Source: a beta proteobacterium AAP51
GTDB taxonomy: Bacteria > Pseudomonadota > Gammaproteobacteria > Burkholderiales > Burkholderiaceae_C
Assembly (NCBI GenBank): GCA_001295905.1
Contig: LJHT01000030.1
Span: 1 to 39,482 of the forward strand
Length of the DNA stretch: 39,482 nt
Reading direction: 5' to 3'
Shown: positions 24,411-32,583 of the stretch, piece after piece
Numbering within the stretch: position 1 is the stretch's first letter
Layout of the letters: every line of letters starts with the position of its first letter
Notes under the pieces: model-generated
What the model saw: the letters and a program-made list of their open reading frames with translations, nothing else
Databases searched by the model: none
Told to the model about the DNA's origin: nothing
Translations under genes and position numbers: made by a program

Positions 24411-26867
24411 TCAGCCGCGCAGCCGCGCGCCGAAAGCCTGGTTCGCACGGGCCAAGGCGGCGGCCACCGCGGCTTCGATGCGTTCTTCGTTCATGGTGCT
24501 GCTGTCGTCGCGCAGTTCCAGCCGCACGGCCAGGCTGCGCTCGCCGGGCTGCAGCCCAGCCACGGGCTGCGCCGGCTTGTAGATGTCGAACAGCGTGGCG
24601 TTGCGCACCAGGCCTTCGGGGTCGGCCTGCAGTTGCGCCATCAAGGCGCCATGGGAGACTTCGTCGCGGACGACGAGCGCCAGGTCGCGCTGCACCGACT
24701 GCTGGCGCGAAACGGGCTGGAAGACCGGCACGGGCTGGGCCAGCACAGCGTCGAGCGCCAGTTCGAACAGCACCGGGGCCTGGCCTTGGTAGCTGGGCAG
24801 CTCATAGGCCTGGCGCCACTTCGGATGCAACTCACCGATGTGCCCGACCACCTGCCCACCCAGGCTGATGCTGGCACTGCGGCCCGGGTGCAGCGCCGGG
24901 TGAACGGCGGGGCCGAACTCGGGCCGCTGCGGGGCCAGCAGGGCTTCGATGTCGCCCTTCACGTCGAAGAAGTCGGCGCCCTGCTCTTTCGCGCCCCACT
25001 GGAGTGGCAGCGCATTTCCCCAAACCAGGCCGCCCACGCGCATCGGCTGGTTCACGCCGGCCACGCTGAGCGCACCGTCGGTCGCCGCCGCATCACGCAT
25101 GAACACGCGGCCGATCTCGAACACGCGCACGCGCGGCGCCTTGCGCGCCAGGTTGTTGCGCAGCGCCTGCACCAGGCTGCCCATCAGGCTGGAACGCATC
25201 ACCGCCAGCGGCGCGGCGATGGGGTTGAGCACGCGGATGGGGTCGGTGTTGCCGGCCAGCTCACGCTCCCAACGCTCTTCGACGAAGCTGAAGTTGATGG
25301 TTTCCTGATAGTCCAGCGCGGCCAGGGCGCGGCGCACCGCATGCGCACTGCGCTGCGCTTCACGCCGCACACGCGGCGTCACGGGCGCGATGGGCGCGGT
25401 CATCGGCAGGCTGTTGAAGCCCACCACGCGCGCCACTTCCTCGATCAGGTCTTCCTCGATCTGCAGGTCGAAACGCCAGCTCGGCGGCGTGACGGTGAAC
25501 ACGCCGCCGGCCTCGCTGTGCGCCAGACCCAGCCGCGTGAAGACATCGGCGCACTGCGCGCTGCTCACGGGCATGCCGATGACCTGCGCCGCACGCGCCA
25601 CGCGCATCGTCACGGGCTTGCACTCGGGCAGACCCAGCACCTGGTCGGTGACCGGGCCGCAGGCGGTGGCCGGCGTGCCGCAGATGTCGAGGATCAGCTG
25701 CGTGATGCGCTCGATGTGTTCGACCGTGCCCTGCGGGTCGACGCCGCGCTCGAAGCGGTGGCCCGCATCGGTGCTGAAGTTGTAGCGGCGCGAACGCCCG
25801 GCCACGGCCTCGGGCCACCAGAAGGCGGCTTCCACGTAAACGTTCTGCGTGCCGTCGTTCACCGCGGTGGCGTCGCCGCCCATGATGCCGGCGAGTGATT
25901 CGACGCCCTGCGCATCGGCGATCACGCCCACCTTTTCGTCCAGCGCGATGGTGTTGCCGTTGAGCAGCTTGAGCTGCTCACCTTCACGGCCCCAGCGCAC
26001 CACGAGCTTCTCGTGGATCTTGTCGAGGTCGAAGATGTGCGAGGGCCGGCCGTACTCGAACATCACGTAGTTCGAGATGTCCACCAGCGCCGAGACGCTG
26101 CGCTGGCCGCAGCGGGCCAGGCGGTCGACCATCCAGGCGGGCGTCTTGGCCTGGGTGTTGACGCCCAGAACCACGCGGCCCGAGAAGCGGCCACACAGGT
26201 CGGCGGCCTGCACCTCCACCGGCAGCACGTGGTCGCTGCGCGGCTGCACCGGCGGAAAGGCCGGCTGGCGCAGCGGCGCGCCGGTGAGCGCGGACACTTC
26301 GCGCGCCACGCCGAAGACGCTGAGGCCGTGGCCCAGGTTGGGCGTGAGCTTTAGCGTGAAAAGGTGGTCGTCGAGCTTCAGCCACTGGCGGATGTCGGTG
26401 CCCACGGGCGCATCGGCCGCCAACTCCAGCAAGCCGCCGTGGTCGTCTGCGATCTTCAGCTCACGGGCCGAGCACAGCATGCCGCGGCTCTCCACACCAC
26501 GCAGTTTGCCCACGCCGATCTTGAAGGGCTTGCCATCCGCTTTTTCGCCGTCAGCAGGCGGCAGCTCGGCGCCCACGGTCGCCAGCGGCACCTTGATGCC
26601 CACACGGGCGTTGGGCGCGCCACAGACGATCTGCAGCGGGCCGTCTTTCGAGAAGGCGCCGGCATCCACGTTGCACACGCGCAGGCGGTCGGCCTGCGGG
26701 TGCTGCTCGGCGGTGAGGATCTCGGCCACCACGATGCCGTGGAAAGGCGGCGCCACCGGGCGCACCTCTTCCACTTCCATGCCAGACATGGTCAGCAGAT
26801 CGGCCAGTTCTTGCGTGTTCAGCGGCGGGTTGCAGAACTCGCGCAGCCAGGATTCGGGGAATTGCAT
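24411..26867 (-). CDS. pheT: Phenylalanine-tRNA ligase beta subunit
   Basis: PheT forms the alpha2-beta2 PheRS with PheS; it edits mischarged Tyr and binds tRNA-Phe. It is 818 residues. The N-terminus MQFPESWLREFCNPPL is typical, then an EMAP-like tRNA-binding domain with AEILTAEQHPQADRLRVCNVDAG, the B3/B4 editing region with NYVMFEYGRPSHIFDLD, the B5 domain, and the C-terminal ferredoxin-like anticodon-binding domain (SRQQSVQRDLALVV). It starts two bases after the pheS stop. Confidence 0.98.
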   Translation of the reverse strand: MQFPESWLREFCNPPLNTQELADLLTMSGMEVEEVRPVAPPFHGIVVAEILTAEQHPQADRLRVCNVDAGAFSKDGPLQIVCGAPNARVGIKVPLATVGAELPPADGEKADGKPFKIGVGKLRGVESRGMLCSARELKIADDHGGLLELAADAPVGTDIRQWLKLDDHLFTLKLTPNLGHGLSVFGVAREVSALTGAPLRQPAFPPVQPRSDHVLPVEVQAADLCGRFSGRVVLGVNTQAKTPAWMVDRLARCGQRSVSALVDISNYVMFEYGRPSHIFDLDKIHEKLVVRWGREGEQLKLLNGNTIALDEKVGVIADAQGVESLAGIMGGDATAVNDGTQNVYVEAAFWWPEAVAGRSRRYNFSTDAGHRFERGVDPQGTVEHIERITQLILDICGTPATACGPVTDQVLGLPECKPVTMRVARAAQVIGMPVSSAQCADVFTRLGLAHSEAGGVFTVTPPSWRFDLQIEEDLIEEVARVVGFNSLPMTAPIAPVTPRVRREAQRSAHAVRRALAALDYQETINFSFVEERWERELAGNTDPIRVLNPIAAPLAVMRSSLMGSLVQALRNNLARKAPRVRVFEIGRVFMRDAAATDGALSVAGVNQPMRVGGLVWGNALPLQWGAKEQGADFFDVKGDIEALLAPQRPEFGPAVHPALHPGRSASISLGGQVVGHIGELHPKWRQAYELPSYQGQAPVLFELALDAVLAQPVPVFQPVSRQQSVQRDLALVVRDEVSHGALMAQLQADPEGLVRNATLFDIYKPAQPVAGLQPGERSLAVRLELRDDSSTMNEERIEAAVAAALARANQAFGARLRG

Positions 26868-26869
26868 GG

Positions 26870-27925
26870 TCAGTTGAACTGCGAGAGGAAGCGAAGGTCG
26901 CCATCGAACATCAGGCGCAGGTCGTCGATGCCGTAGCGCAGCATCGCGAAGCGGTCGGCGCCGATGCCGAAGGCGAAGCCGATGTGCGCTTCAGGGTCGA
27001 GCCCGAAGTTGCGCACCACGTTCGGGTGCACCTGGCCGCTGCCGGCCACTTCCAGCCAGCGGCCGGCCAAGGGGCCGCTGCCGAAGCGGATGTCGATCTC
27101 GGCGCTGGGCTCGGTGAAGGGGAAGAAGCTCGGGCGGAAGCGCACGTCGAAGTCGTCGGTCTCGAAGAACTCGCGCACGAGTGAGGCGAAGACGACCTTC
27201 AGGTCCTTGAAGCTGACGTTCGCGCCCAGCCACAGGCCCTCGATCTGATGGAACATGGGCGAGTGCGTGGCGTCGCTGTCGACGCGGTACACACGGCCCG
27301 GCGCGATGACACGGATCTCCGGCATTGGCAGGCCCTGCGCCGCCAGCACGGCATGCTGCTTGGCGTGGGCCTGGGCGTAACGCACCTGCATCGGGCTGGT
27401 GTGCGGGCGCAGGCAGAGCCAGCGGCCCTGCGCGTCCTTCATGTCGACGTAGAAGGTGTCCTGCATCGAGCGCGCCGGGTGGTTCTCCGGGTTGTTCAGC
27501 GCGGTGAAGCTCATCCAGTCGGTCTCGATCTCGGGGCCTTCGGCGACATCGAAACCCATGCTGCCGAAGATGGCCTCGATGCGCTCGATGGTGCGGCTGA
27601 CCGGGTGCAGCCCGCCCATGCCGCGCCCGCGGCCGGGCAAGGTGACGTCCAGCGCCTCGGCACGCAGCTGCGCCTGCAACTCGGCCTCGGCCAGCGCGTC
27701 ACGGCGCGCCTGCAGCGCGGCTTCGATGGCGGCCTTGGCCTGGTTGATCTCGGCGCCGCGGGTCTTCTTCTGTTCGGGCGAAAGCGCACCCAGGCCCTTG
27801 AGCAACTCGGTGAGGCGGCCGCTCTTGCCCAGGAAGCGGGCCTTGGCATCTTCCAGCGCCGCGCCCTGGGTGGCAGCGGCGAAGTCGGCCTGCGCCGCCT
27901 GCACGAGGGTGTCGAGATCGTTCAT
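26870..27925 (-). CDS. pheS: Phenylalanine-tRNA ligase alpha subunit
   Basis: PheS carries the class II catalytic core that charges tRNA-Phe. It is 351 residues. The N-terminal coiled coil is followed by [19 protein letters not shown], motif 2 ([19 protein letters not shown]) and [18 protein letters not shown] as motif 3. Start ATG 27925. The frame is open for 11 more codons upstream, but these come from the U-tract of the preceding terminator and are not taken as coding. Confidence 0.97.
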
Positions 27926-27931
27926 CGCTGG

Positions 27932-27970
27932 GAAAAAGGAAAAAAAAGGCCGCCACAAGGTGACGGCCTT
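27932..27970 (-). terminator. Rho-independent terminator between rplT and pheS
   Basis: On the minus strand an 11-bp stem (AAGGCCGTCAC / GTGGCGGCCTT, one G-U pair) with a CTT loop is followed by TTTTTCCTTTTT. It ends just before the pheS ATG. A smaller dyad (GGCACC/GGTGCC) lies upstream near 27988-28003. No Phe-rich leader peptide precedes the hairpin. Confidence 0.85.
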
Positions 27971-28015
27971 AGAGAGCTTGAAAGGCAGCCGGCACCGGGG
28001 TGCCAGCGGCGGGGA

Positions 28016-28372
28016 TCAAGCCAGCTGAGCCTTCACCTTCTCGACGATGCTGCCAAAGGCAGCCGGGTCGTGGATGGCCATGTCCGACAGCACCTTGCGG
28101 TCGATGTCGATGCCGGCCTTCTTCAGACCGGCCATGAACTTGCTGTAGGTCAGACCCAGGCCACGGCTGGCCGCGTTGATACGCGCAATCCACAGCTGAC
28201 GGAACACACGCTTGCGTGTGCGACGGTCACGGTAGGCGTACTGGCCGGCCTTCATCACCGCCTGCTTGGCGATGCGGAAGACGTTCTTGCGACGGCCGCG
28301 GAAGCCCTTGGCGAGCTTCAGGATCTTTTTGTGGCGGGCGTGTGCGGTGACACCACGTTTGACGCGAGGCAT
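28016..28372 (-). CDS. rplT: 50S ribosomal protein L20
   Basis: L20 is an early 23S-binding assembly protein and translational repressor of its operon. It is 118 residues: [60 protein letters not shown], then the globular C-terminal half. It follows rpmI by 33 bases. Confidence 0.98.
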
Positions 28373-28405
28373 TCAATATCTCCTTGTGCGTACGTTGAAG
28401 TGGGT

Positions 28406-28609
28406 CTACAGACCGGCCATCGGCAGCATCTTGGCGATGCTGCCCAGGTCGCTCTCGTGCACGTTGGCCGGGCCGCGCAGGTCGCGCTTGCGGCTGGTGC
28501 TCTTCTTCGTGAGGATGTGGCGCTTGAACGCCTGACCGCGCTTGACGGTACCACCCGGACGCACGCGGAACCGCTTCTTGGCGCCGCTCTTGGTCTTCAT
28601 CTTGGGCAT
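28406..28609 (-). CDS. rpmI: 50S ribosomal protein L35
   Basis: L35 is 67 residues: [34 protein letters not shown] and RKRDLRG, fully typical. The ATG at 28609 has AAGGAG at good spacing; the frame runs 17 codons further upstream without similarity. It lies between infC and rplT. Confidence 0.97.
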
Positions 28610-28632
28610 GACTGCTCCTTCTTCATTTGCTG

Positions 28633-28675
28633 CTGCAGGCGGCACCGGGTTGGGGTGCACTTGCGAGGCCTGCAG
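28633..28675 (-). promoter_or_regulatory. Long hairpin in the infC-rpmI gap, possible L20 control site
   Basis: An 8-bp outer stem (CTGCAGGC 28633-28640 / GCCTGCAG 28668-28675) encloses a 5-bp inner stem (GCACC 28642-28646 / GGTGC 28654-28658) with an asymmetric nine-base bulge. It lies 24 bases before the rpmI start. In E. coli L20 represses this operon from a structure in the same interval; equivalence here is inference. Confidence 0.4.
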
Positions 28676-28752
28676 CCGCTTCTTTTCGCTGCCGCGGTGA
28701 CCAGACCGCGACCACGAAACTCTGAATCTCTAACTTCCGCGTGACGCTTGCG

Positions 28753-29301
28753 TCACTTCCGTTTCGGCGCCAGCACCATGATCATCTGGCGGCCTTCGAG
28801 CTTGGGCATGTGCTCCACCATCGCCACATCGGCCAGCTCGTCGCGGATGCGTTCCAGCATGCGCATGCCGATGTCCTGGTGGGTGATCTCGCGGCCGCGG
28901 AAGCGCAGCGTGACCTTGCCCTTGTCGCCGTCTTCGGCAATGAAGCGCCGCAGGTTGCGCATCTTGATGGCGTAGTCGCCGTCGTCGGTGCCCGGGCGGA
29001 ACTTCACTTCCTTGATCTCGATGACCTTCTGCTTGCTCTTGGCTTCAGCGGCCTTCTTCTGCTCTTGGTACTTGAACTTGCCGTAGTCCATGAGCCTGCA
29101 CACCGGGGGGTCGGCGGTGGCAGCGATCTCCACCAGGTCGACATCCAGTTCCCCTGCCATGCGCAACGCTTCCATCGTGCTGACGATGCCGAGCGGTTCG
29201 TTTTCGACCCCGTTCAGGCGCACCTGCGGCGCCATGATTTCCCGGTTCAGACGGTGCTTGCGCTCCGCGTTGGGCACGCGGCGGTCCATGAAGGTAGCGA
29301 T
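28753..29301 (-). CDS. infC: Translation initiation factor IF-3, probable AUC start
   Basis: IF-3 binds 30S, blocks premature 50S joining and rejects non-AUG starts. The body has [27 protein letters not shown] N-domain, the linker [22 protein letters not shown] region and the C-domain [21 protein letters not shown]. Counting from ATC 29301 it is 182 residues. AGGAG (29310-29314) is eight bases before ATC, ideal spacing, but 20 bases before the first ATG (29289). E. coli infC uses AUU for self-regulation, so an AUC start here is likely. If ATG 29289 is used the protein is 178 residues. Confidence 0.95.
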
Positions 29302-29370
29302 GGTTCCAGCTCCTGTTGCAACCCGAAGGCAGGCGGGCCACAGAAAAAACGAAAGCGCACCCGGTGGCGG

Positions 29371-31278
29371 CTATACCTTGGCAGCGATGTCGCTGGTGAT
29401 CTTCGCCTGGAAGTCTGCCAGCGCCATCACACCCAGGTCTTGATTGCCTCGGGCGCGCACGGCAACGGCCCCGTTTGCCTTCTCCTTGTCGCCAACGACC
29501 AGGATGAACGGGACCTTCTGCATCGAATGCTCGCGAATCTTATAGTTTATCTTCTCGTTGCGCAAATCGACGGAGACTCTAACTCCTTGTTTTTGCAGCG
29601 ATTTCGCCACGCTTGCCGCGTAATCGGCCTGCGCGTCGGTGATCGAGGCCACCACCACCTGGGTGGGCGCCAGCCAAGCCGGCAGCGCGCCAGCGTGCTG
29701 CTCGATAAGGATGCCGATGAAGCGCTCCAGGCTGCCCACGATGGCGCGGTGCAGCATGATGGGGCGGTGGCGGGCGCCGTCTTCGCCCACGTAGTCGGCG
29801 TCCAGGCGCTCGGGCAGGTTGGGGTCGACCTGGATCGTGCCGCACTGCCAGGGGCGGCCCAGGGCGTCCTTGAGCGTGTACTCGATCTTCGGGCCGTAGA
29901 AGGCGCCCTCGCCCGGCAGGTACTCGAACTCGCAGCCGGCGGCACGCAGGCCGTCGGCCAGCGCGGCTTCGGCGCGGTCCCAGCTCTCTTCGGTGCCGAT
30001 GCGCTTCTCAGGCCGCGTCGAGAGCTTGTAGATGATGTTGCTGAAGCCGAAGTCCTTGTAGACCTGCTGCAGCAGCCGCGTGAAGGCCACCACCTCGCCC
30101 TGGATCTGGTCTTCGGTGCAGAAGATGTGGCCGTCGTCCTGCGTGAAGGCGCGCACGCGCATGATGCCGTGCAGGCCGCCGGTGGGCTCGTTGCGGTGGC
30201 ACTGGCCGAACTCGCCGAAGCGCAGCGGCAGATCGCGGTAGCTCTTGATGCCCTGCTTGAAGATCAGGATGTGGCCGGGGCAGTTCATCGGCTTGAGCGC
30301 GTACTCGCGCTTCTCCGACTCGGTCACGAACATGTTTTCGCGGTACTTGTCCCAGTGACCGGTTTTCTCCCACAGGCCCTGGTCGAGGATCTGCGGGCCC
30401 TTCACTTCCTGGTAGCCGTTGTCGCGGTAGACACGGCGCATGTACTGCTCCACCTCCTGCCAGAGCGTCCAGCCCTTGGGGTGCCAGAACACGGTGCCGG
30501 GGCTGTGCTCGTCGAGGTGGAAGAGGTCGAGTTCGCGGCCGAGCTTGCGGTGGTCGCGCTTCTCGGCTTCTTCCAGCATCGTCAGGTACTGCTGCAGGGC
30601 TTCCTTGCTGGCCCAGGCCGTGCCGTAGATGCGCTGCAGTTGCTCGTTGTTCTGGTCGCCGCGCCAGTAGGCGCCGGCCACCTTCATCAGCTTGAAGTGC
30701 TTCAGGCGGCCGGTGCTGGGCACGTGCGGGCCGCGGCAGAGGTCCTCGAAGCCGCCTTCGCGGTAGAGGCTGACGTCTTCACCCGCCGGGATGCTGCCGA
30801 TGATCTCGGCCTTGTAGTGCTCGCCCAGGCCGTTGAAGTAATCAACAGCCTCGTCGCGCGGCAGCACACGGCGCTGCACGGGCTCGTTCTTGGCCGCGAG
30901 TTCGCTCATGCGTTTCTCGATGGCCGCCAGGTCTTCCGGCGTGAAGGGGCGCTTGTAGGCGAAGTCGTAATAGAAGCCGTTTTCGATGACCGGGCCGATG
31001 GTCACCTGCGCCTCGGGGAAGAGCTCCTTCACCGCGTAGGCCAGCAGGTGCGCCGTGCTGTGGCGGATGATCTCCAGGCCGTCGGCATCTTTCTCGGTGA
31101 CGATGGCCAGAGCCGCATCGGCCTCGATGCGGTGGCTGGTGTCCACCAGCTGGCCGTCCACCTTGCCGGCCAGGGCAGCCTTGGCCAGGCCGGCGCCGAT
31201 GCTGGCGGCCACCTCGGCCACCGTGAGCGCTTGCGGGTACTCGCGGCGCGAGCCGTCGGGCAAGGTGATCGTGATCAT
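29371..31278 (-). CDS. thrS: Threonine-tRNA ligase
   Basis: ThrS charges tRNA-Thr and hydrolyses Ser-tRNA-Thr. It is 635 residues. The order is the TGS domain ([29 protein letters not shown] start), the editing domain with [17 protein letters not shown], the class II core with zinc ligands in [22 protein letters not shown] and [10 protein letters not shown], and the anticodon-binding domain. Start ATG 31278 follows TGGAGC. Expression is probably set by a Thr-codon attenuator upstream (31300-31421). infC follows, completing thrS-infC-rpmI-rplT. Confidence 0.98.
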
Positions 31279-31299: not shown

Positions 31300-31325
31300 A
31301 AAAAAGCGCGGTGGGCGCCGCGCTT
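31300..31325 (-). terminator. Attenuator terminator in the thrS leader
   Basis: On the minus strand an 8-bp stem AAGCGCGG / CCGCGCTT with loop CGCCCA is followed directly by TTTTTTCG. It lies between the leader peptide and thrS. Its 5' arm can pair instead with 31363-31370, forming an antiterminator. Confidence 0.88.
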
Positions 31326-31408
31326 GTCTTCAGGGGGTGGGGAAATCAGATGAAGGCGTGACAGCGCGGCCGACTAGCTCTCGGTGGTGGTGAACCGGGT
31401 AGTCCGCG
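31317..31408 (-). promoter_or_regulatory. Antiterminator and pause hairpins of the thrS attenuator
   Basis: Three mutually exclusive pairings can be traced. Segment 1 (31400-31408, CGCGGACTA on the minus strand, inside the Thr codons) pairs with segment 2 (31365-31376, TAGTC..CCGCG). Segment 2 (31363-31370, GCCGCGCT) pairs perfectly with segment 3 (31317-31324, AGCGCGGC). Segment 3 is the 5' arm of the terminator. A ribosome stalled on Thr codons would cover segment 1, free segment 2 and prevent termination. Confidence 0.75.
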
Positions 31409-31421
31409 GTGTCATAACCAT
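31374..31421 (-). CDS. Threonine-rich leader peptide of thrS
   Basis: A 15-codon frame MVMTPRTTRFTTTES with stop TAG at 31374-31376. Six of its codons are Thr (ACA, ACT and four ACC), three of them consecutive near the end. AAAGG lies four bases before the first ATG and ten before the second (31415). It sits after the patatin gene and before a terminator hairpin, the arrangement of a ribosome-mediated attenuation leader such as thrL. It is expected to have no function as a peptide. Confidence 0.85.
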   Translation of the reverse strand: MVMTPRTTRFTTTES

Positions 31422-31460
31422 GCTGCCTTTCTCTGCCCTTGTTCGTTGAAAACAGCCCGC

Positions 31461-31466
31461 AGTGTA
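31461..31466 (-). promoter_or_regulatory. Putative -10 box for the thrS leader transcript
   Basis: TACACT on the minus strand lies about 40 bases before the leader peptide start, in the gap after the patatin gene. The -35 would fall inside the end of that gene and is not clear. Confidence 0.35.
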
Positions 31467-31473
31467 ACGCGCC

Positions 31474-32583
31474 TCAGCGCAGCGGCTGGGCCTCGACAGG
31501 CCGCCCGTCGCGCACCAGTTCCGCGAATTCATCGGCCAGGCGCTGGCTTTCGGCCAGGGCCTGGCGCCACAGGCGCTGGCGGCTCGCATGGTCTTGGCCG
31601 TAGCGCTTGAAGTCGCTGCGGTCGGGCAGCTTGCCGCCGGGCAGGCGCCGCACCCATTCCGGTCTGGGTGACAGCAGCACCAGGTTGTCCAGCGCCGGGC
31701 TGGCCAGGTGGCGGCGCTTCCAGGCCTTGTCCAGCCACCCGGGCACCACCTGCGCGCCGAAGTGCGGGTACAGCACCAGGCCGTCAGCCATCTCGGCGTA
31801 GGGCAGGTGCAGGTGGTAGTCGGTGATGCCGCCGTCGAAGTAGGTGCCTTCGGGGCCGCCCGGCACGTCCTGCACGGCTTCCAGCCAGAAGGGGATGGTG
31901 CAGCTGGCCAGCACGGCCGGGCTCAGGTTGGCAGCGGTCAGCGCCACCTGGCGGGTGGGGAAGTCGCTCAGCGCGAAGGGCAGCGGCTCGCGCGGGTCGC
32001 TGAACACCACCCGCTCCATCCAGCCGCCCAGGGCCCGGCGCGAAGCCGCGTTGGCGGCGAAGGCGGCCAGCCAGCCCAGCGGCATCTTCAGGCGGCCCGG
32101 GCGGTGCAGCAGGCGGCGGCCCCGGCTGGTGAAGACATGCAGCCGGTAGCGCGGGTGCGCCAGCAAAAGGGCTGCCTGACTGCCCAGGCGTTCTTGCAGC
32201 TTCGCGCTGAACACCTGGCTCACCACGCGCGCGGTGGGCGGCTTGCCGGGGGCGCTGGGGTAGCTTTGCGTGATGTAGTCCTCGGCCAGCTGCGCCAGCG
32301 CCGCGTCGGGGTCGGCCGTGCAGGCAGCCGCCATGCGCCAGGCGCCGATGCTGGCGCCCAGCAGGTGCACGCTGGGGGCTGAAGCAGCACCCGGGCCTGG
32401 CAGCGTGCCGCCCGTCAACCAGGGGCCGAAGATGTAGCGGTCCAGCGGAATCAGGCACAGGCCCTTGGCGCCACCGGCTGCGGCCGGCACCACGCGCACA
32501 TCGGCCGGCTGCAGGCCGCGCTGGCGAAGCACTTCGCGGGCGCGCGGGCCGGCGTGCACGGCCAGGGCCTGCAGCGCGGCCAT
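31474..32583 (-). CDS. Patatin-like phospholipase family protein
   Basis: A 369-residue protein with the patatin catalytic dyad: the nucleophile S78 in GASIG and the Asp D250 in YFDGG. The Gly-rich AAAGGAKGL near 35-42 should form the oxyanion hole. No clear signal peptide is seen, so it is probably cytosolic. Members hydrolyse acyl esters of phospholipids; substrate unknown. It starts two bases after the TonB-dependent receptor stop, so the two are likely co-translated, an unusual pairing. Confidence 0.85.
   Translation of the reverse strand: MAALQALAVHAGPRAREVLRQRGLQPADVRVVPAAAGGAKGLCLIPLDRYIFGPWLTGGTLPGPGAASAPSVHLLGASIGAWRMAAACTADPDAALAQLAEDYITQSYPSAPGKPPTARVVSQVFSAKLQERLGSQAALLLAHPRYRLHVFTSRGRRLLHRPGRLKMPLGWLAAFAANAASRRALGGWMERVVFSDPREPLPFALSDFPTRQVALTAANLSPAVLASCTIPFWLEAVQDVPGGPEGTYFDGGITDYHLHLPYAEMADGLVLYPHFGAQVVPGWLDKAWKRRHLASPALDNLVLLSPRPEWVRRLPGGKLPDRSDFKRYGQDHASRQRLWRQALAESQRLADEFAELVRDGRPVEAQPLR

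Follow-up and report, generated by a model that had tools for sequence, protein, structure and literature searches.

The analyzed window, i.e. the whole stretch of DNA studied, is contig LJHT01000030.1 (positions 1-39,482; 39,482 nucleotides) of beta proteobacterium AAP51 (GCA_001295905.1). On its minus strand, a patatin-like gene is followed by a 52-nt gap, a short leader ORF, a terminator match and thrS, whose product carries the TGS, tRNA_SAD, tRNA-synt_2b and HGTP_anticodon domains (Pfam) and shares 61-85% identity with its ThrS relatives (Table 1). The genes thrS, infC, rpmI, rplT, pheS and pheT (24411-31278; pheS and pheT assigned by eye on the basis of their translations) all run in the same direction, and therefore read-through of a thrS attenuator could also reach infC-rpmI-rplT. 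A strong terminator match (27946-27970; 11-bp stem and T-run) is located between rplT and pheS, and no Phe-rich leader ORF was seen ahead of it. The start codon of infC may be the non-standard ATC at 29299-29301 (in the IF3 frame, with AGGAG 8 nt upstream), rather than the ATG at 29289; rare start codons are typical of IF3.

Table 1. Coordinates of the thrS leader elements and neighbouring genes in the window.
Feature	Position	Strand	Evidence
thrS, threonyl-tRNA synthetase, 635 aa, regulated gene	29371..31278	-	ORF call and Pfam
Predicted intrinsic terminator, 3:4 stem, 6-nt loop	31300..31325	-	sequence scan (31325-31304); consensus fold of relatives
Region 3 GACAAGCGCGGC, predicted antiterminator partner of region 2	31317..31328	-	terminator scan, duplex energy, alignment, permutations
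Region 2 GGCCGCGCTGTCA, 2 nt past the stop codon, predicted partner of region 1 or 3	31359..31371	-	duplex energy, alignment, permutations
Leader ORF MVMTPRTTRFTTTES, 15 codons, six Thr	31374..31421	-	sequence; Thr-containing leaders in relatives
Thr codons of the leader ORF	31412-31410, 31403-31401, 31400-31398, 31391-31383	-	sequence
Region 1 TGACACCGCGGACTA, within the leader ORF, predicted partner of region 2	31400..31414	-	folding; duplex energy
Shine-Dalgarno-like GAGAAAGG of the leader ORF	31426..31433	-	sequence
Candidate -10 hexamer TACACT, near match, 51 nt before the second ATG	31461..31466	-	site of TANAAT in relatives
Patatin-like gene, upstream neighbour	31474-32583	-	ORF call and Pfam

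According to the original prediction, a 15-codon leader ORF with six Thr codons, an intrinsic terminator before thrS and three overlapping stems (1:2, 2:3 and 3:4, with a perfect 8-bp match in 2:3) precede the gene. All of these were recovered in the window sequence: the ORF on the minus strand (31421..31374), the terminator as an intrinsic-terminator match found by scan, and each of the three stems. The leader ORF reads ATG GTT ATG ACA CCG CGG ACT ACC CGG TTC ACC ACC ACC GAG AGC TAG and its Thr codons comprise one ACA, one ACT and four ACC. Its first ATG lies 4 nt from the end of GAGAAAGG, and a second in-frame ATG (31415) is the one common to all 22 leaders of the alignment described below (A1), in which a (G)AAAGG Shine-Dalgarno-like motif was found in 21/22 rows, the remaining row being cut by a contig end. 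The two Thr codons that open the leader are rare ones, as among the 117 Thr codons of six window genes ACA occurs in 4/117 and ACT in 0/117. In passages of PMC1183508, which treat the theory of codon choice in attenuation, leader codon choice is tied to the isoacceptor whose reading responds most to limitation, and this principle may account for the use of ACA and ACT here. The E. coli thrL leader has eight ACC codons (same passages), whereas the first two Thr codons of the block shared by the window and its relatives are ACA and, mostly, ACT.

The terminator match consists of AAGCGCGG-CGCCCA-CCGCGCTT followed by TTTT, with six consecutive T residues (two of them in the stem), and AAGCGCGG, located within region 3, doubles as the 5' arm of the terminator. 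In the predicted antiterminator, GCCGCGCT (31370-31363) pairs perfectly over 8 bp with AGCGCGGC (31324-31317), which takes in most of this 5' arm, and the helix is extended beyond a 1-nt bulge. The calculated energy of the 2:3 duplex is -22.3 kcal/mol (p 0.010 when region 2 was shuffled 300 times) and that of the 1:2 duplex in the window is -22.8 kcal/mol (p 0.007). The 126-nt leader folds with -41.8 kcal/mol (z -3.56; 0/200 dinucleotide shuffles as low), while its shortened forms stand out less from the shuffles (z -1.1 to -2.0). For a transcript that lacks region 1 and has yet to reach region 4, the 2:3 hairpin is predicted (31313-31390; -20.4 kcal/mol, z -1.25). With region 1 removed and region 4 present, the terminator is the minimum-energy fold, and thus antitermination would have to be kinetic, i.e. 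co-transcriptional, as in the classical model.

The first comparative set comprised the best 80 of 580 confirmed thrS loci. Among these best 80, the leader block (up to 3 mismatches) was present ahead of thrS in 27, and a terminator match, irrespective of a Thr leader, was found in 63 (within a distance limit of 130 nt, except for L047, 215 nt). Alignment A1 was built of 22 leaders picked because they have the block, with 3 mismatches to GACACCGCGGACTAC at most (L007 was admitted with a looser pattern). All 22 retain the terminator stem (alignment and consensus fold), and GGTTATGACACCGCG (31405-31419) is identical across them, including the third positions of codons such as ACA and CCG and the GGTT that precedes the shared ATG, an invariance that is partly by choice, since the rows were selected for part of the block. 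The GGT ahead of the block was outside the selection pattern, and in the wider set GCGTT also occurs at this site (L046, L211 and L239). Downstream of MTPRT, the peptides differ in sequence and length (e.g. MTPRTTTTTPTRV, MTPRTTTAGERGLRGC and MTPRTTPQGFSGFFFFEGNGR), and region 2 of the relatives is mostly placed directly past the stop codon. Counter-cases are L011, L019, L023, L024 and L051, whose leaders have only two Thr codons each, and L020, in which both the start codon and the Thr run are lost.

The exact 18-mer GGTTATGACACCGCGNAC occurs in 23/300 genomes of the order, once in each (its backward control gave 0 among the matches listed), and in 9/9 sampled members of the window's family. 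In all 9 of the 23 genomes with a listed thrS position, it shares the strand of thrS and precedes the gene by about 100-180 nt. The covariance model R1 gave one strong full-length match in the window's own genome, the next one (E 0.004) being a partial terminator match. Its matches in 205/300 genomes are unsuitable as a measure of prevalence, as many cover only the terminator end, while full-length matches (1-140) with E below 1e-9 were obtained in at least 42/300 genomes.

The GGTT of GGTTATGACACCGCG is not accounted for by pairing of region 1. Across the leaders of A1, nucleotide-level conservation of the block exceeds the need of the peptide alone, which favours an alternative in which thrS is autoregulated by ThrS bound to a tRNA-Thr-like operator in the leader, the conserved block being that operator, as in E. 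coli, where ThrS binds its own mRNA and blocks translation. E. coli ThrS autoregulation is also named in PMC2965389, in whose main-text passages thrS is not named. However, such an operator would not explain why Thr runs, an antiterminator and a terminator are there, no mimic of an anticodon arm was seen by eye in the leader, and we regard this alternative as very unlikely. Dual control, by attenuation and by ThrS binding, may exist.

Attenuation entails pairing of region 2 with region 3, and in A1 88.4% of the 2:3 cells are paired compared with 84.9% in shuffles (5/500 as high) and with 50% or less for slid partners. Column pair 88:155 of the 2:3 helix (n=22) is GC in 7, UA in 7, AU in 1, GU in 1 and unpaired in 6 leaders, so both sides change; as column 155 is in the terminator loop, outside the stem, the terminator cannot explain this pair. 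For three of five whole-structure measures on A1, few shuffles were as high (5/500, 17/500 and 3/500), and no excess was found for pairs with a change on both sides (500/500 shuffles as high) or for further pair types (197/500). With the partner slid by +2, both-sided changes were counted in 9 cells, compared with 8 for the true 2:3, at only 49.4% paired.

Specificity of the 2:3 pairing was assessed with permutations in which region 3 was swapped between loci (the tree being ignored, apart from the restricted versions). A locus's own region 3 was matched by 25/20,000 permutations in 31 loci and by 0/20,000 in 67 loci. The latter set consists of the window, 29 of the best-80 loci and 37 of the 149 upstream regions introduced below, the 37 being chosen by eye for a Thr-like leader and a terminator ahead of any pairing computation on them; L013, a near-duplicate of L010, was left out, and some of the automatically picked ORFs are too long (e.g. 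L135, L141 and L168). Swaps confined to loci with the same terminator core gave 6/20,000, and a set of 21 loci, one from each family with the window added, gave 36/20,000. Within single cores, the numbers of permutations as good, each of 20,000, were 221 for GCGCGG (29 loci), 1,472 for GTGCGG (18 loci) and 2,050 for ACGCGG (8 loci). When loci were taken singly against shuffles of region 2, p<0.05 was reached in 10/31 (Fisher p 2.6e-9). In some relatives, the best helix is wholly different in sequence (e.g. GCTAGTCG/CGGCTAGT in L029 and L033, or TCGAGG/CCTCGA in L041 and L164). The start of the 2:3 helix, counted from the first stop-codon base, has a median of +4 nt and is reached by +13 in 61/67 loci (searched from -9 to about +32).

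For 1:2, pairing was no better than with swapped loci in the 31 loci (6,284/20,000; Fisher p 0.23) or within the same core (2,753/20,000), whereas 156/20,000 permutations were as good in the mixed 67-locus set and 843/20,000 with one locus per family. Taken singly against shuffles, p<0.05 was reached in 2/31 loci. Cross-species sequence support for the predicted 1:2 pairing is weak.

ThrS was found in 157/160 genomes of the GTDB order, and 149 thrS upstream regions from 50 families were examined, the window's own being excluded (7/157 ThrS genomes were left out). A terminator match was present in 114/149 regions, of which 113, from 42 families, were long enough for a Thr-run test (L199 was left out for its length). 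In this test, the Thr count within 6-codon stretches of short ORFs before the terminator was compared with that in 200 shuffled sets. At least 4 Thr in 6 codons were found in 19/113 regions (11 families; shuffled sets: mean 0.18, maximum 2) and at least 3 in 36/113 (mean 3.2, maximum 8). The other 19 amino acids combined reached 4 in 6 codons once in the 113 regions. At the lower level, the next amino acids were Val (24/113; shuffles 5.0), whose raised count probably comes from readings of tRNA-Val genes, and Arg (19/113; shuffles 15.6). The Thr run is kept in otherwise unlike peptides, e.g. MFKRTTTTRISR, MSFRTTTTGTLNLG and MPRTRTTTGFFSRRG, and the idea of a Thr-rich leader as a chance ORF was rejected, as Thr runs are far above the shuffled sets. 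ORFs starting with MTTVIQGG (L006, L017 and L122) look like the tail of an upstream gene, and those of the MVGVVGSSP type look like readings of the tRNA gene. Of the 42 families with a tested terminator, 18 have one or more loci reaching 3 Thr in 6 codons and the other 24 have none.

In the neighbouring material, 5/7 Xanthomonadales-type thrS loci have a short Thr-containing ORF after a common TGCGACATG start, with the peptides MSTTSSQR, MATTRFHC, MSTTPI, MSTTTAHR and MSTINV (L066, L068, L069, L081 and L083). In L066, L068 and L069, a terminator match lies between this ORF and thrS. These ORFs may be a further, separate Thr leader belonging to a different order.

The Thr-codon and stem conservation anticipated by the original prediction therefore holds for part of the relatives (the block in 27 of the best 80 loci, the Thr runs and the 2:3 pairing); others are without a Thr run, and for 1:2 the conservation is weak. 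The families lacking a Thr run are compatible with a different reading, namely that the hairpin is a plain terminator of the upstream unit (the patatin-like gene here, tRNA-Val in many relatives) and the Thr-rich ORF a product of chance. This is also favoured by the same-strand tRNA gene found upstream of thrS in 105/149 regions (L120-L268; 103 tRNA-Val and 2 tRNA-Asp), an arrangement that suggests an ancestral tRNA-Val - leader - thrS transcription unit; no such gene was found in the window or in three sampled members of its family within the stretch read. Against a plain upstream terminator stand the number of Thr runs, which greatly exceeds that in shuffles, and the coevolution of region 2 with region 3, a terminator-loop base included. 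The upstream gene moreover ends clear of the leader ORF, and in window-type leaders a -10-like hexamer is mostly located between the two: TANAAT occurs 45-60 nt ahead of the shared ATG in 16/20 leaders (the A1 rows without L007 and L016), compared with 1.2% of shuffles. The window is one of the 4/20 misses and carries the near match TACACT at that place, which makes the upstream-terminator reading slightly likelier and attenuation slightly less so; a sigma-70 scan gave no promoter over threshold. Overall, the upstream-terminator reading was rejected, and we assign only a small probability to it.

Control by a T-box, or by some other aptamer that senses a tRNA or a metabolite, was also considered, as many aminoacyl-tRNA synthetase genes of Firmicutes are under T-boxes (passages of PMC1262725). 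The leader, however, is about 120 nt long, and most of it belongs to the ORF and to pairing regions that overlap. A search of Rfam (4227 families, including T-box and Thr_leader) gave no leader match at the gathering score, and permissive settings added just three, all far below their respective gathering scores. A T-box or other Rfam family was rejected owing to this absence of a match, and the probability left to such an aptamer is practically negligible.

In the E. coli thr operon attenuator (thrL), whose Rfam family is presumably Thr_leader, a leader peptide with Thr codons, alternative hairpins and an intrinsic terminator are combined. The window leader likewise has Thr codons, alternative pairings and an intrinsic-terminator match, but thrL controls the biosynthetic thrABC and not thrS. 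The E. coli pheST attenuator is similar in that aminoacyl-tRNA synthetase genes are attenuated (passages of PMC1262725 and of PMC4082710, where pheST attenuation is cited), and differs in the amino acid (Phe, not Thr), gene and lineage. Classical attenuators are also described at trpS and leuS in Streptomyces, besides pheST in gammaproteobacteria (passages of PMC1262725). The E. coli thrS operator acts on the same gene as the window's leader, but there ThrS itself is the regulator (passages of PMC2965389), a mode other than leader-peptide attenuation.

The closest precedent is Streptomyces lividans, in which a Thr-dependent leader peptide, thrL, has been proposed before thrS (passages of PMC8079986). 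That element is actinobacterial, encodes MKRVRPFLETTPGFVPAR with two Thr, is leaderless and has no clear Rho-independent terminator, and antiterminator conservation, which is present for the window leader, does not figure in the same passages. Attenuator motifs based on Rfam covered his, leu, thr and trp at the time of PMC3766115 (passages), and thrS is not mentioned in the passages of PMC4833913. The kind of mechanism is already known (thrABC, pheST). A comparative survey of proteobacterial attenuators is reportedly that of Vitreschak et al. 2004. In the literature searched, which comprised the main text of Naville and Gautheret 2010, where 'thrS' does not occur, but neither its tables nor that survey, no Thr leader of a betaproteobacterial thrS was found, which does not prove its absence from print. 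The original description of such control as little or not described stands in so far as no betaproteobacterial report was found there, and has to be narrowed in view of the two-Thr thrL already proposed before S. lividans thrS (passages of PMC8079986). The betaproteobacterial thrS attenuator is well supported, and undescribed within the literature searched.

The original reading of the thrS leader as an attenuator is supported, since Thr codons, terminator and antiterminator recur across the order and 2:3 coevolves. Reckoned from the sequence with the generally known size of the ribosome footprint, stalling at any one of the six Thr codons would place the ribosome over all or part of region 1 and keep region 2 accessible, whereas a ribosome that has arrived at the stop codon would sit on region 2, a geometry that matches classical attenuation. 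Judging from its sequence and that of its relatives, the thrS leader is very probably a classical ribosome-mediated transcription attenuator that would sense charged tRNA-Thr, and we infer ribosome stalling, termination and induction by Thr limitation from its anatomy and evolution. RNA polymerase would start upstream of the mini-ORF, with a ribosome following. With ample charged tRNA-Thr, the ribosome would run on to the stop codon and mask region 2, so that the 3:4 terminator forms before thrS. With too little of it, the ribosome would be held up at the Thr codons, on top of region 1, and the exposed region 2 would pair with region 3 as this is transcribed, letting the polymerase continue into thrS. 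If the leader is not translated, the 1:2 stem would be made and transcription would end at the terminator. The outcome would likely be more ThrS enzyme when charged tRNA-Thr runs short.

We tentatively put forward a wider scenario, which is possible, though on the doubtful side: Thr-codon attenuation may be the ancestral control of thrS in betaproteobacteria (GTDB order Burkholderiales), in place of the E. coli ThrS operator or the Firmicutes T-box. It may have arisen in a tRNA-Val - leader - thrS unit, and in the window's family it may have gained its own promoter; the nearly fixed RNA block GGTTATGACACCGCG carried there, with its rare Thr codons, may have a second regulatory role beyond region 1. 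The covariance model and the set of leader mini-ORFs are usable in annotation. As thrS is known to be controlled by ThrS autoregulation in E. coli and by T-boxes in Firmicutes, a third mode operating across the order would mean that one gene is regulated in three unrelated ways, which would make it a clean case of the replacement of regulation.
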